Below are positions 22,968 through 29,181 of a stretch of DNA of 35,599 nucleotides, piece by piece (the first letter of the stretch is position 1; each line of letters begins with the position of its first letter). The stretch is from contig CANHBC010000011.1 of NCBI GenBank assembly GCA_947458835.1, forward strand, positions 1 through 35,599. Reading direction: 5' to 3'. Under the pieces are notes generated by a model. That model saw nothing but the letters and a program-made list of their open reading frames with translations, ran no database searches and was not told where the DNA came from. The stretch is from Betaproteobacteria bacterium. Its GTDB lineage: Bacteria > Pseudomonadota > Gammaproteobacteria > Burkholderiales > CAIKXV01. Position numbers and translations under genes: made by a program.

Positions 22968-23474
22968 CTAGAGGCGGCGGATCCGGTCCAGCAGCGCAGT
23001 GGTGGAGCGCTCGTGGACGAACGGGATGGACACCACCCGCCCGCCACGCGCGCGCACGCCCTCTCCGCCGACGATCTTCTCGACCGGCCAGTCGCCGCCC
23101 TTGACCAGCACCTGCGGTCCGATCGCCTCGATCAGTTCCAGCGGGGTGTCGGCGTCGAACCATGTCACGAGGTCGACGCACTCGAGCGCCGCCATCACCG
23201 CCATCCGGTCGGTGAGCGGGTTCACCGGGCGGTCGTCGCCTTTGCCGAGGCGACGCACCGAGGCGTCGCTGTTGAGTGCCACCACCAGCGATGCACCCAG
23301 GGCTCGCGCCTGTGCGAGGTAGGTCACGTGGCCCCGGTGCAGCAGGTCGAAGCAGCCATTGGTGAACACGACCGGATCGGGGAGCGCTGTCGCCCGTAGC
23401 GCAGCTTCCGCCGGTGCGCACAGCTTGCGCTCGAACGCGGGCACGGCCGGCACTGCCGCGGGCTCGGCCGGCAT
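22968..23474 (-). CDS. rfaE2: D-glycero-beta-D-manno-heptose 1-phosphate adenylyltransferase
   Basis: [82 protein letters not shown]. Confidence 0.93.
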
Positions 23475-23478
23475 CCGG

Positions 23479-24372
23479 TCAGGCCGCGGCGGGTGCAGAC
23501 ACGGACTCGCCGGCGGCGGCGTTGAGTGTCTTGCGGTAGCGGTTCAGCGCCTGCACGGTTTCGAAGCTCTGGCCGAGCAGCGTCGACAGCTTCTTCAGGA
23601 TCGAGCCGACCACCTTGCCTTCCCAGTCGCGGTCGAAGCGGATCTGCTGGTCGAGCCAGTGCTCCAGCCACGCGGGGTCGGGCAGGCGGCTCTGCACCGT
23701 GTCGTTCGGGAACAGGGCCTTGGCCACGTGCAGGTTGGTCGGATGCAGCGCCTGCCCGGTGCGGCCGGCCGATGCCATCAGGACACCGACCTTGGCGAAG
23801 GCGCGCCGCGCGTCGTCCCCGAGTCGCTCGATCGCCTGCTGCATGTAGCGGAGGTAGGCGCCGCCGTGGCGTGCCTCGTCATGCGACACCAGCCGGTAGA
23901 TATGCTGAATCACCGGTTCGGTGTGCCACTCGGCCGCGCACTGGTACCACTGGGTCAGCCGCAGTTCGCCGCAGAAGTGCAGCGTCAACGTCTCGAGGTA
24001 CGGTGCCGGGTCGAACTCGAAGCGCACCGCGTGCAGCTCCTCCTCGGTCGGCAGCAGGTCGGGGCGGAAGCGGCGCAGGTACTCCATCAGCACCAGCGAA
24101 TGCTTCTGCTCCTCGTAGAACCAGACCGACATGAACGCAGAGAAGTCGCTGTCGTGGCGGTTGTCGCGCAGGAACATCTCGGTGGCCGGCAGCGCCGACC
24201 ACTCGGTGATCGCGTTCATCTTGATCGTGCGCGCCTGCTCGTCGCTGAGCCGCGCGGGGTCGAACGAATCCCAGGGGATGTCCTCGGCCATGTTCCAGCG
24301 GACTTTCTCCAGCTGGCGGAAGATCTTCGGATAGAGCATCGGGAGGTTCAGTCGGAAAGTCGGGCCCGCCAT
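23479..24372 (-). CDS. Ferritin-like diiron protein, soluble acyl-ACP-desaturase-like
   Basis: Two ExxH motifs in helical context: [17 protein letters not shown] and [16 protein letters not shown], plus conserved-looking Glu in other helices; overlaps the litR 3' end by 25 bp. Confidence 0.72.
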
Positions 24373-25277
24373 TCGCCCAGGGCGGTGATGATCTGCTCAA
24401 GGCCGCGCAGCACTTCGATGCCTTCGCCCGGGGTGCGGGCACGCAGCATCGCATCGCCGCCGACCCACAGCGCGATGCGCGCCGGGAGCATCTCGCGCAG
24501 TTCACGGATGCTGCCAGTAGCCAGCCTCGCCGGGAAGGCTGCGCTGAACGAAATCGCGACGATGTCCACGTCATGCGCCAGCGCGGCGGCGACGATGTCG
24601 GTACCCGGGGTCTCGACCCCGAGCGGCACGCAGTAGACGCCCTCGAGCGTGAGCAGCGCCTCGGCCATGAGCAGCCCCATGCCGTGCTGCTCGCCCGGCA
24701 GGGTGGTGAGCAGCACGCGCGGCGAGTGACCGCGCAACTGGATGCTGGCGATCGCGTTGCGCAGCAGCCCCTGCATCTGTTCGGTGTACAGGTGCTCCTC
24801 GAACACGGCGATCTCGCCACGTACCCAGGCGTTGCCGATCGCGCGGTTCAGCGGCACGACGATGTCCAGCACGAAGGTGCGCAGGCCGTCGCGCAGCAGG
24901 TTCTGGGTCAGCCGCTGGCGCAGTTCGAGCGACTTGTGCGTGCGCACCAGGTTCATCAGTGCCTCGACGTCCGGGCTGTGCGCCGGACTCTCGGCTTCGT
25001 TGCAGAGCGCATTGAGCTCGTCGATCGACTTGCCGATGATCTTGCTCGGCCGGTGCCCCTGGTCGAGCAGGCGCTTGAGCAGGCGCAACTTGTCGACCTG
25101 ATCGGACGGGTAGATGCGCTCGCCGTGGGCATCGCGGTAGGGTTGCGGGAAGCCGTAGCGACGCTCCCAGACGCGCAGCGCGTCCTTGGACAGTCCGGTG
25201 TCACGTTCCACCGAGCTGATGTTGACCGGTGCGCGGTCGCCACCGATTTCTTCAGCGATCGAGTATTTCTTGTCCAT
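24348..25277 (-). CDS. litR: MerR-family transcriptional regulator with cobalamin-binding domain (CarH/LitR type)
   Basis: VNISSVERDTGLSKDALRVWERRYGFPQPYRDAHGERIYPSDQVDKLRLLKRLLDQGHRPSKIIG; W-VRGEIAVFE-EH (Wx9EH); GEQHGMG (ExHxxG). Confidence 0.9.
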   Translation of the reverse strand: MDKKYSIAEEIGGDRAPVNISSVERDTGLSKDALRVWERRYGFPQPYRDAHGERIYPSDQVDKLRLLKRLLDQGHRPSKIIGKSIDELNALCNEAESPAHSPDVEALMNLVRTHKSLELRQRLTQNLLRDGLRTFVLDIVVPLNRAIGNAWVRGEIAVFEEHLYTEQMQGLLRNAIASIQLRGHSPRVLLTTLPGEQHGMGLLMAEALLTLEGVYCVPLGVETPGTDIVAAALAHDVDIVAISFSAAFPARLATGSIRELREMLPARIALWVGGDAMLRARTPGEGIEVLRGLEQIITALGEWRARLSD

Positions 25278-25284
25278 GCTTCTG

Positions 25285-25313
25285 ATTAGACACCGGCACT
25301 GGGAATTGAACAA
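25285..25313 (-). promoter_or_regulatory. Predicted promoter of litR (-35 TTGTTC, 17-nt spacer, -10 TCTAAT)
   Basis: Minus strand TTGTTC AATTCCCAGTGCCGGTG TCTAAT, 7 nt before ATG. Confidence 0.45.
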
Positions 25314-25335
25314 TCTACCTGATGCGGGTGATACT
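25306..25335 (+). promoter_or_regulatory. Predicted promoter of the rightward cluster (-35 TTGAAC, 18-nt spacer, -10 GATACT)
   Basis: TTGAAC AATCTACCTGATGCGGGT GATACT; shares dyad ATTGAACAAT with the divergent -35. Confidence 0.4.
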
Positions 25336-25347
25336 GACTAGGACAAA

Positions 25348-25515
25348 ATGGTTGTATGGATGGGAAATTCCGAGCGGCATCCCGACCGGCGATCCAGGGG
25401 GCGCTTCCGTCCGGAGCGGCCGGTGCGACCGATCCGGATGGTCCGACCGATCCGGCCGGTCCGACCGCTGTCCCGGCCAGAGCGCCGGCTCCCGGGAGAC
25501 CGGCGCCGCGAATGA
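25348..25515 (+). CDS. Possible Arg/Pro-rich leader peptide (55 aa)
   Basis: AGGACAAA-ATG; MVVWMGNSERHPDRRSRGRFRPERPVRPIRMVRPIRPVRPLSRPERRLPGDRRRE; overlapped by other open frames. Confidence 0.2.
   Translation: MVVWMGNSERHPDRRSRGRFRPERPVRPIRMVRPIRPVRPLSRPERRLPGDRRRE
25427..25462. repeat. Two tandem 18-bp units GACCGATCCGG(AT/CC)GGTCC plus partial third
   Basis: GACCGATCCGGATGGTCC / GACCGATCCGGCCGGTCC / GACCGCTGTCC... Confidence 0.75.
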
Positions 25516-25614
25516 TGCAGCACAGTCGGTGCCCGCGCAAACGCGCTCGATTACCATCGCCGGTCACCCGGCGTCGGGTGCAGCAGTTCGTCATCACCAG
25601 AAGGATCCACGCGG

Positions 25615-27027
25615 GTGCACCAGACAACGATAGCAGTAGTGGGCTCCGGCATATCCGGACTGGCAGCCGCCTGGTTGCTGCGCGACCGGTACCGGGTCAC
25701 CCTGTTCGAGGGCAGCGACCGCCCGGGCGGCCATACCAACACCATCGACGTCGAAGTCGATGGTCTTCGCTTTCCGGTGGACACCGGCTTCCTGGTGTTC
25801 AACGAACGCACGTACCCGAACCTGATCGCCCTGTTCGACCTGGTCGGGGTGCCGTCGGTTACCAGTGACATGTCGTTCAGCGTCTGCGTCGATTCGCCCC
25901 GTCTGGAATGGGCCGGTACCTCGGTCGCTTCGCTGTTCGCGCAGAAGCGCAACCTGCTGAGGCCGCGTTTCTGGGGGATGCTCGCGGACATCCTGCGATT
26001 CAACCGCGAGGCGCCCGCTTTCGTCGAACCCGATCCGGCCCGTCCGATGGACCTCGGCACCTGGCTCGAGCGCGGCCGGTACGGGCGCGCATTCCGCGAC
26101 TGGTACCTGCTGCCGATGGCCGCGGCGATCTGGTCCTGCCCGGTCGATTCCATGCGGGCCTTCCCGGTGGCGAGCTTCATCCGCTTCTTCGTCAACCACG
26201 GGCTGCTGCAGGTCACCCGCAGGCCGCGGTGGATGACGGTCACCGGCGGCGGCCGGGAGTACGTGCGCAGGCTGTGCGCCGACCTGCCGGACGTACGCCT
26301 GTCCAGTCCAGTGGAACGCGTACGCCGGCTCGCCCAGGGCGTGGAGGTCACCGCAGGCGGCCGGGTCGAGCGCTTCGACCAGGTGGTGCTCGCCTGCCAC
26401 AGCGACCAGGCGCTTGCCGCGCTGGCCGACCCGTCGCCGGACGAGTCGGCGTTGCTCGGCGCAGTGCGCTACCAGCCCAACGTTGCGTGGCTGCACACCG
26501 ACGCTTCGTTCCTGCCGCGGTCGAAAGTGGCCTGGGCTGCGTGGAATTACGCCGGTGGCGGCGCACCGGACCGCACCGGTGCCGATTCACCGGCGGCGGT
26601 CGGTGCGGCCGCGCCCGGCCCGACCGATGCCTGCGGCTCGGTCAGCGTGACCTACCTGATCAACCGCCTGCAGCCGCTGCCGACCGCGACGCCGGTGATG
26701 GTCACGCTGAACCCGCATCGGCCGGTCGATCCCGCACAGGTGATCCGGCGCATCGAATACGCGCATCCGATGCTCGACGCGCCGGCACTCGCCGCCCAGC
26801 AGAGACTGCCGCCCATCCAGGGCGTCAACCGCACCTGGTACTGCGGGGCCTGGACCGGCTACGGCTTCCACGAAGACGGGTTGAAGTCGGCGATCGCGGT
26901 GGCCGAAGGGCTGGGCGTGCTGGCACCGTGGGCGCCTGCCGTGCCTGCCGGTGAGCCGGCGTCGGTGCCGGCGTCGGACATCGCCGGGGTGCCGGCCGAA
27001 CGCCCGGCCGTGGCGACGGCCGGATGA
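25615..27027 (+). CDS. FAD/NAD(P)-binding oxidoreductase (flavin amine-oxidase-like)
   Basis: GTG start with AGAAGGA RBS; TIAVVGSGISGLAAAWLLRDRYRVTLFEGSDRPGGHTNTIDVEVDGLRFPVDTGFLVFNERTYPNL. Confidence 0.9.
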   Translation: MHQTTIAVVGSGISGLAAAWLLRDRYRVTLFEGSDRPGGHTNTIDVEVDGLRFPVDTGFLVFNERTYPNLIALFDLVGVPSVTSDMSFSVCVDSPRLEWAGTSVASLFAQKRNLLRPRFWGMLADILRFNREAPAFVEPDPARPMDLGTWLERGRYGRAFRDWYLLPMAAAIWSCPVDSMRAFPVASFIRFFVNHGLLQVTRRPRWMTVTGGGREYVRRLCADLPDVRLSSPVERVRRLAQGVEVTAGGRVERFDQVVLACHSDQALAALADPSPDESALLGAVRYQPNVAWLHTDASFLPRSKVAWAAWNYAGGGAPDRTGADSPAAVGAAAPGPTDACGSVSVTYLINRLQPLPTATPVMVTLNPHRPVDPAQVIRRIEYAHPMLDAPALAAQQRLPPIQGVNRTWYCGAWTGYGFHEDGLKSAIAVAEGLGVLAPWAPAVPAGEPASVPASDIAGVPAERPAVATAG

Positions 27028-27911
27028 CTGCGGCGGCTGCGGGCGGCGGTTGCGCACCGTTGGGACGGAGGGCGACGGGTTCCGCCGCGTGGTCGCCGGC
27101 GATCTGCAGCGGCTCGGTGATCCATCGTCGATTCACACCGGTCGCCCACGCGTTCCGCTACCCGGCGTTCTTCCTGCGGTTGCCGCTGACCTGGCTCGAT
27201 GGCGGGCCCGAGGCGGGCCGTCCCCGGCTGTTCAGCGTCGACCGCTTCAACCTGTTCAGCCTGATGCGCCGCGACTACGGTCCGCGCGACGGCTCGGCGC
27301 TCGCACCGTGGATCCGCGGGCTGCTGCTGGACAACGACCTGCCGCAGGCCGATGGCGAGGTGGTGCTCTACACCCTGCCGCGCGTGCTCGGCCATGCATT
27401 CAATCCGGTCAGCTTCTGGATGTGCCACGACCGGGCCGGACGGTTGCGTGCGGTCCTGTGCGAGGTCAGCAACACCTTCGGCGAGCGCCACAACTACCTG
27501 GTGGCCCGCCCCGATGGCGGCGCGATCGGCACCGGGATGGCGCTGCAGGCGCGCAAGGTATTCCATGTGTCGCCCTTCTTTCCGGTGGACGGCGAGTACG
27601 TTTTCCGGTTCCATGCGGATCAGGCGCGTTGCCTGTTCAGGATCGACTACCAGTGCGTCGGCGTGCCGCAGCTCGAGACGTCCCTGTCGGGCGCGGCTGC
27701 ACGGCCGACCGACTTCGGGCTGCTGAGCGCCTTCCTGAGGCTGCCGTGGCTGATGGCCGGGGTGATCGTGCGCATCCACCTGCAGGCGTTCAGGCTGTGG
27801 TTGAAGGGCGCGGTCTTCCATCGCAAGCCGCTGCCGCCGGTCGAGCCGACGACGCGCTCGGCGACGGCGGGTTCCGACGGGTTACACCAGAAAGGTTCCA
27901 CGAATGACTGA
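27024..27911 (+). CDS. DUF1365 family protein
   Basis: SVIHRRFTPVAHAFRYPAFFLRLPL...LGHAFNPVSFWMCHDRAGRLRAVLCEVSNTFGERHNYLV...ARKVFHVSPFFPVDGEYVFRF. Confidence 0.92.
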   Translation: MTAAAAGGGCAPLGRRATGSAAWSPAICSGSVIHRRFTPVAHAFRYPAFFLRLPLTWLDGGPEAGRPRLFSVDRFNLFSLMRRDYGPRDGSALAPWIRGLLLDNDLPQADGEVVLYTLPRVLGHAFNPVSFWMCHDRAGRLRAVLCEVSNTFGERHNYLVARPDGGAIGTGMALQARKVFHVSPFFPVDGEYVFRFHADQARCLFRIDYQCVGVPQLETSLSGAAARPTDFGLLSAFLRLPWLMAGVIVRIHLQAFRLWLKGAVFHRKPLPPVEPTTRSATAGSDGLHQKGSTND

Positions 27912-29181
27912 AGTCACTGTCGAGCAGTCGCGCGAAGGCGATGCGCGGCCGGTCACCGACCAGGAGACGATACGGCGCATCCGCGCAGCCATGCCTCCGG
28001 CTGGCCAGCTGTTCATCCGCGTGCTCGACCAGTTGCGCGTCGGACGCCTCGACCTGGTGACGCCCGAGGGCGAATGGCTGTCCTTTGGTGGAAGCGAATC
28101 CGGTCCCCACGCCACGCTCACGCTGCGCACGTGGCGTGCCGCCGAGGACATCCTGCGCACCGCCGATATCGGGCTGGCCGAGGCATACATGGCCGGCGAC
28201 TGCGACATCGACCGGCCGGCAGACCTGCTGACGGTGGCGCTGCTCAACCAGCGGCATATCGAGCGCGCCTTCTACGGCCACTGGCTTGCGGTGCTCTGGT
28301 ACCGGCTGCGCCACTGGTCGCGGGCGAACACGCGCTCGGGCAGCCGCCGCAACATCGTGGCCCACTACGACCTGGGCAACGAGTTCTACCAGTTGTGGCT
28401 CGACCCGACCATGAGCTATTCGTCGGCCTGGTTCGACGGCAACCTGACCCAGCCGCTGGAGCGCGCGCAGCAGGCGAAGTACGAGCGCATCCTCGACCGC
28501 CTCGGGGCCAGGGCCGGCGACCATATCCTCGAGATCGGCTGTGGCTGGGGTGGATTCGCCGAGGTAGCCGCGCGGCGCGGCTGCAGGGTGCGCGGCATCA
28601 CGCTGTCTCCCGCCCAGCTGGAGCATGCGCGGGCGCGCATGGCCTCGGCCGGGCTGTCGGGTCTGGTCGAGCTGTCGTACACCGACTACCGCGACATCGG
28701 GGGGCAGTACGACCACGTGGTATCGATCGAGATGTACGAGGCGGTGGGCGAGCGGTTCTGGCCGGCCTACTTCAAGGCGATCCGCGACCGCCTGAAGCCG
28801 GGCGGGCGGGCGGTGATCCAGGGCATCACGATCCACGACGAGGTGTTCGGACGCTACCGGCGCGGCACGGACTTCATCCAGCAGTACGTTTTCCCCGGCG
28901 GCATGCTCGCATCTGAGGGCGCGTTCGCCAGGGCCTGCGCCCGCGCCGGCCTGCGGCAGCACCCGAGCGCCTCGTTCGGTCGCGACTATGCCGAGACGCT
29001 GCGCCGCTGGCTCAAGGCATTCACCGAGGCTGAGCCGCGGGTGCGCTCGCTCGGGTTCGACGACCGCTTCATCCGCATGTGGCGGTTCTACCTCTGCTAC
29101 TGCGAGGCGGGCTTCGACGCCGGACGCACGGACGTGCTGCAGTTCGAGCTGTCGCGACCGGCCGACGGGGCGGTGCGGTGA
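27904..29181 (+). CDS. Cyclopropane-fatty-acyl-phospholipid synthase-like SAM methyltransferase
   Basis: NIVAHYDLGNEFYQLWLDPTMSYSSAWF, ILEIGCGWGGFAEVAA, GITLSPAQLEHA, SIEMYEAVGERFWPAYF. Confidence 0.94.
   Translation: MTEVTVEQSREGDARPVTDQETIRRIRAAMPPAGQLFIRVLDQLRVGRLDLVTPEGEWLSFGGSESGPHATLTLRTWRAAEDILRTADIGLAEAYMAGDCDIDRPADLLTVALLNQRHIERAFYGHWLAVLWYRLRHWSRANTRSGSRRNIVAHYDLGNEFYQLWLDPTMSYSSAWFDGNLTQPLERAQQAKYERILDRLGARAGDHILEIGCGWGGFAEVAARRGCRVRGITLSPAQLEHARARMASAGLSGLVELSYTDYRDIGGQYDHVVSIEMYEAVGERFWPAYFKAIRDRLKPGGRAVIQGITIHDEVFGRYRRGTDFIQQYVFPGGMLASEGAFARACARAGLRQHPSASFGRDYAETLRRWLKAFTEAEPRVRSLGFDDRFIRMWRFYLCYCEAGFDAGRTDVLQFELSRPADGAVR

Follow-up and report, generated by a model that had tools for sequence, protein, structure and literature searches.

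CarH operators, known from Thermus, Bacillus megaterium and the Myxococcales, consist of three to four tandem direct repeats at one place. They have TnnACA half-sites in an 11-bp step, with the -35 TTGACA inside a repeat, and in some myxobacteria they are expected to control divergent promoters (PMC9304148). The half-site, the 11-bp step and a -35 TTGACA within a half-site are common to those operators and the ones predicted in relatives of the window. In place of a tandem array, these have two 13-bp palindromes that flank a shared -10 at a distance of 6 or 7 helical turns, and a single further repeat. Class II LitR proteins, as PplR1 and PmlR2 of Pseudomonas, are likewise MerR/B12-type repressors, whose sites cover the -35 and the vicinity of the start (PMC9758184). 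Their operators read T(G/A)TACA-N12-TGTA(C/T)A and a LOV protein takes part in control, whereas the candidate operator here is TTGTCYWRGACAA and the regulator carries AdoCbl motifs. A third likeness, of the relatives' layout, is with the symmetric -10 bidirectional promoters of Warman, Grainger and colleagues, for example acrA/acrR and soxS/soxR, which also have overlapping -10s, predicted starts 18 bp apart and a flanking regulator gene (PMC12825309). Unlike in acrA/acrR-type promoters, both outward -35s here appear to coincide with half-sites for a repressor whose own gene flanks the promoter, and the rightward half seems decayed in the window, i.e., the whole stretch of 35,599 nucleotides analysed (contig CANHBC010000011.1).

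In the window, litR is divergent from an operon starting with a FAD-dependent amine-oxidase-like gene (Table 1). Beyond the CMAS-type methyltransferase, the operon continues with Chalcone_3, MFS_2 and DUF3833 genes (Pfam). The same divergent pair was found in 10 congeneric genomes, with litR identities of 81–96%. The litR start codon is the ATG at 25277 (GTG in one congener), and the sequence upstream of it is variable. The G + C content was ~0.45 at 25250-25349, versus ~0.60–0.77 in the flanks, an AT-rich dip that the sequence-only reading had rightly noticed.

Several other features were recognized around these genes. Downstream of litR and overlapping its end, a minus-strand gene (23479-24372) had weak similarity to FA_desaturase_2/AurF, a possible di-iron oxidase, and was followed by a cytidylyltransferase-like gene (22968-23474, minus). 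The three genes possibly form one autoregulated operon. The rightward operon has a predicted leader of ~270 nt (25343-25614), GC-rich and variable in length among congeners, with short GACCGATCCGG-like repeats at ~25426-25470. One locus, L037 (CAMDXD010000269.1), is titled Bordetella parapertussis, yet its litR was 92% identical to that of the window. It clusters with the environmental betaproteobacterial MAGs that make up the window's genus, and the name looks like a mislabel.

Table 1 Predicted genes, operators and promoter elements of the litR region, in positions of the window.
Feature	Position	Strand	Description
litR	24348..25277	minus	Pfam MerR_1 + B12-binding_2 + B12-binding; CarH/LitR family
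First gene of divergent operon	25615..27027	plus	FAD-dependent amine-oxidase-like protein (Pfam)
DUF1365 gene	27024-27911	plus	second in divergent operon (Pfam)
CMAS-type methyltransferase gene	27904-29181	plus	after DUF1365 (Pfam)
Putative distal LitR-type operator TTGTCCTAGTCAG	25346-25334	minus	11/13 to TTGTCYWRGACAA; homologous to the palindrome of the distant loci
Predicted litR -35, TAGTCA	25340-25335	minus	inside distal operator, in the place of the relatives' T[AG]GACA; 17 bp from -10
Predicted litR -10, TAGATT	25317-25312	minus	no change at A25312, T25316 or A25317 across all 11 congeners, amid variable sequence
Candidate proximal half-site, TAGACA	25287-25292	plus	CarH-type TnnACA; ancestral rightward -35; TGTC on minus
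Candidate proximal palindrome right arm, GGACAA	25270-25275	minus	litR codons 1–3; identical in 10/11 congeners
Predicted rightward -10, GATACT	25330-25335	plus	GATACT in 8/11, GATAAT in 2/11 congeners; predicted start ~25342, inside distal operator
Putative ancestral rightward -10 remnant, CAATCT	25311-25316	plus	overlaps litR -10 by 5 bases; homologous to the relatives' shared -10
Shared dyad of the sequence-only reading, ATTGAACAAT	25305..25314		judged a chance match: least conserved 10-mer, shuffle-level dyad number

All three domains of LitR scored above the Pfam cut-offs. The nearest solved structure was CarH of Thermus (E ~2e-29), and W-x9-EH and ExHxxG (GxxW, EH, GxxH) were kept, as GNAWVRGEIAVFEEH and GEQHGMG aligned to Thermus CarH. 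Because of this proximity and the kept motifs, a fair reading of the protein is an AdoCbl-type LitR. The NCBIfam CarH equivalog gave 136.6 bits, under its cut-off of 400. It is rather improbable that this LitR acts independently of AdoCbl through a partner protein. Such modes of action exist, with the class II LitR PmlR2 acting through a LOV partner (PMC9758184) and CarA working without B12 (PMC8156234), but here the AdoCbl motifs are intact, the B12-binding domains exceed their cut-offs and the class II operator TGTACA-N12-TGTACA is absent. By reading the sequence, the class II consensus T(G/A)TACA-N12-TGTA(C/T)A was not found in 25260-25360 either.

We compared the sequences preceding litR in 41 homologues from outside the genus (40–59% identity), all read in the litR sense. 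From this comparison come the predicted operator sequences, their spacing and the promoter-like positions. The 13-bp palindrome TTGTCYWRGACAA stood out upstream of these distant betaproteobacterial litR genes. Over all loci, genus included, 62 positions matched TTGTCCWRGACAA at 12–13 of 13 bases, against an expectation of 0.05 in Markov shuffles. The loci share descent, so that their counts are not independent, and most of those scored had also served to derive the consensus. Two palindrome copies were present in 31 of the 41 distant loci, spaced by 62–64 bp in 26 and by 73–74 bp in five, which is nearly 6 or 7 turns of the helix. An extra half-site, TGTCAA, lay upstream of the proximal copy, in most cases at 10–12 bp. 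In the 74-bp-spaced loci possessing it, the distance to the proximal palindrome was 21–22 bp.

Two further observations concern individual relatives. In L042, L043 and L046-L048, only a few bases separate the litR ATG from the preceding right half of the proximal palindrome (CAGGACAA), which could also serve as the ribosome-binding site of litR. A third match to the palindrome or its complement (12/13) was found ~130–190 bp upstream of the distal operator in L042-L044, L046-L050 and L053; some of these may be coding.

In the 31 distant loci, the distal palindrome has T[AG]GACA or a variant of it as its right half, and a -10 follows at a spacing of exactly 17 bp. TANNNT occurs at this offset in 68% of these loci and A..T in 90%, other offsets giving little. 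We took the pair as the litR promoter, the half-site being its -35. On the opposite strand, the extra half-site reads TTGACA, the presumed rightward -35, with 17–18 bp to a rightward -10. The latter overlapped the litR -10 by five of its six bases in 27 of the 31 loci. Given a five-base overlap, the second -10 has its A and its T by necessity, and therefore the sixth base is the informative one. The rightward T at -12 was present in 23 of the 26 loci with a rightward -35 half-site and in none of the five without (tallied by eye; Fisher p 0.0003, only indicative, since the loci are related). The predicted divergent starts lie 18 bp apart, the commonest start distance at Escherichia coli bidirectional promoters (PMC12825309).

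In the window, the distal operator had 94% identity in 11 congeners, within the top 1% of segments, and was kept in 10 of these congeners. It overlies the predicted litR -35 and the end of the rightward -10. Its strong half has an A instead of the T at the first position of TnnACA, and GACAA at 25342-25346 was invariant. The litR transcription start is predicted at ~25305. On the proximal side, the TAGACA half-site had 97% identity and occupies the same place as the relatives' TTGACA, the reverse complement of TGTCAA. The right arm GGACAA is also coding, and its conservation is therefore ambiguous. The left arm is degenerate (GAAGCA), and the proximal operator no longer has its middle half-site. 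The proximal operator lies 64 bp from the centre of the distal one, and the distance from GGACAA to TGTC is as in the relatives. In place of CarH-type tandem repeats, the window has one near-palindrome and two half-sites. Of the TnnACA half-sites in 11-bp register, it has the one at 25287-25292. Altogether, the positions constrained in congeners were TTAGACA 25286-25292, A25312, T25316, A25317, C25318, GATA 25330-25333 and 25334-25346.

For the rightward promoter there are two candidates. The operators may be as proposed, with the operon still transcribed from the ancestral promoter (TAGACA 25287-25292, N18, CAATCT 25311-25316, start ~25323) and GATA 25330-25333 conserved for another reason. 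TNGACA is invariant in the genus and homologous to the relatives' element, and TAGACA with the overlapping downstream hexamer was the sole promoter-like match in a 2-kb scan. Nevertheless, CAATCT has only 2 of 6 bases of the -10 consensus and none of the 11 congeners retains its T at -12, while GATACT or GATAAT is kept in 10 of the 11. We regard this alternative as doubtful, though worth keeping in mind. A shift of the rightward start to ~25342 is preferred because the T at -12 is lost genus-wide and the GATACT/GATAAT hexamer is kept. GATA 25330-25333 is explained neither by the operator nor by the litR -35. No conserved -35 for this -10 was found in the 11 congeners.

The sequence-only reading had already picked GATACT as the rightward -10, a choice which the congeners bear out (lost in one of 11). 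The rest of its model had LitR on ATTGAACAAT, holding two back-to-back -35s, and a second dyad at 25343-25355. All the strings it named exist: TTGAAC (25306-25311, plus), TTGTTC (25308-25313, minus), ATTGAACAAT, GATACT, TCTAAT (25285-25290, minus) and ACAAAATGGTTGT (25343-25355), and TTGAAC-N18-GATACT matches the promoter consensus at 8 of 12 bases. Yet the 78-bp tract had two 4+4 dyads (spacer 0–8), with 1.43 expected from dinucleotide shuffles and 40% of the shuffles reaching two; the dyads are therefore not singled out by sequence alone. Promoter-like pairs of at least 8/12 numbered four, versus 1.26 in shuffles, 4% of which reached four. At 39% identity across 11 congeners, ATTGAACAAT was conserved less than any other 10-mer in the non-coding stretch, which speaks against a control site there. 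Neither -35 was conserved, including TTGAAC for the rightward promoter. For the minus promoter, TTGTTC has 3 of 6 bases of TTGACA and TCTAAT is without the key A at -11, and the conserved litR promoter lies elsewhere. In the relatives both -35s are in other places and the geometry is reversed, with the -35s outside and the -10s overlapping. The second dyad had average conservation (65% in 11 congeners) and a right arm that was not distinguished; its left arm owes its conservation to another element, the distal operator, of which it forms one half, and the dyad is a misreading of that half. As a whole, this model is extremely improbable. A comparison with about fifty relatives, such as it had suggested, showed another conserved layout, in which the predicted LitR sites coincide with elements of the two opposing promoters. 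A leaderless litR mRNA from TCTAAT was also considered, since this hexamer stands at a constant distance from the ATG throughout the genus. It was dropped, as the invariant core is the half-site GACA, TCTAAT has no A at -11 and the relatives' -10 falls at 25317-25312.

To search independently of litR, we mined 399 genomes of the order for two trimmed palindromes 60–76 bp apart. Matches were found in eight genomes, and in none with the reversed control. All eight places adjoin a litR homologue (42–54% identity). G020 and G091 (its sequence being that of L046) were already in the discovery set; the other six were new. Overlapping -10s were present in all eight and a perfect TTGACA at the expected place in seven. 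The genes opposite litR varied, including the FAD operon, folE2 and glutathione peroxidase. These results bear on whether another regulator binds the operators, litR being a mere neighbour. The operators are predictions from sequence, and the exact palindrome occurs in 4 of 48 genomes without litR (69 genomes outside the genus). Against this, the paired palindromes adjoin litR in 8 of 8 places although the opposite gene varies, and the half-site and 11-bp step match known CarH operators, making a different regulator highly improbable.

Away from the litR promoter, the exact palindrome was found in 8 of 21 litR-bearing genomes, versus the 4 of 48 others (p 0.005). A wider LitR regulon is not claimed, as these were mostly single palindrome sites near unrelated genes. 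Within the window's genus no convincing other targets were found, the palindrome search giving matches below control counts. Extra copies of ACTGACTAGGACAA recurred at one place, the intergenic region that separates a rhodanese-like gene from a TetR-type regulator, and were otherwise below control level. There, at L083 near 1503 (G000:C33:15153-15165), TTGTCCTAGTCAA was the only other exact match to TTGTCCWRGWCAR in the window's genome among the matches listed. It recurs in four congeners (G002, G003, G007 and G010) and may be a second LitR target, part of a TetR operator, or chance.

We consider it likely that the litR/operon intergenic region carries two LitR operators through which dark AdoCbl-LitR would block both directions, and that the rightward start has probably moved. 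The distal operator (25334-25346) would cover the litR -35 together with the end and start site of the rightward -10, and of the proximal one (25270-25292) only two half-sites would remain, around the start codon of litR. With AdoCbl bound, LitR on both operators would block RNA polymerase in both directions in the dark; in the light, AdoCbl would be destroyed, LitR would leave and both promoters would be freed. From CarH biology we infer LitR binding, its dependence on light and AdoCbl, and repression; the start sites are predictions. The layout would descend from a bidirectional promoter that is common across the Betaproteobacteria and has overlapping -10s, each of its -35s being a LitR half-site. 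Its rightward half appears partly decayed in the window's genus, initiation having probably moved to GATACT 25330-25335. Counting against this explanation, the window's sites are weaker than those of its relatives (distal 11/13, proximal left arm lost), GATACT has no conserved -35 to go with it and the genus yielded no other convincing LitR targets. The earlier idea that LitR sits over promoter elements and silences both directions, including its own gene, fits the comparative evidence, but the site and geometry given for it do not: dual dark silencing with autoregulation is plausible via 25334-25346 and 25270-25292, not via 25305-25314.

In the papers searched we found no earlier description of this operator; most subscription papers lay outside the search, and novelty is not proven. 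Those papers gave no operator for the betaproteobacterial LitR group, and the analysis provides a predicted sequence and layout of one. A 2026 paper stated that nothing had been known about the control of bidirectional promoters (PMC12825309), and this locus type would be a naturally occurring, conserved case in which a repressor is positioned to govern the two directions of such a promoter. With evenly balanced confidence, we propose that a single symmetric bidirectional promoter serves both litR and its divergent light-stress genes across the Betaproteobacteria. Its -35s would be half-sites of the B12 light repressor and its operators would lie 6 or 7 helical turns apart, so that one photoreceptor assembly would switch regulator and target together. 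The window's genus would then show such a promoter being rebuilt, its rightward start moved into the operator. The prediction is base-precise, and the layout could yield a compact two-way light switch.
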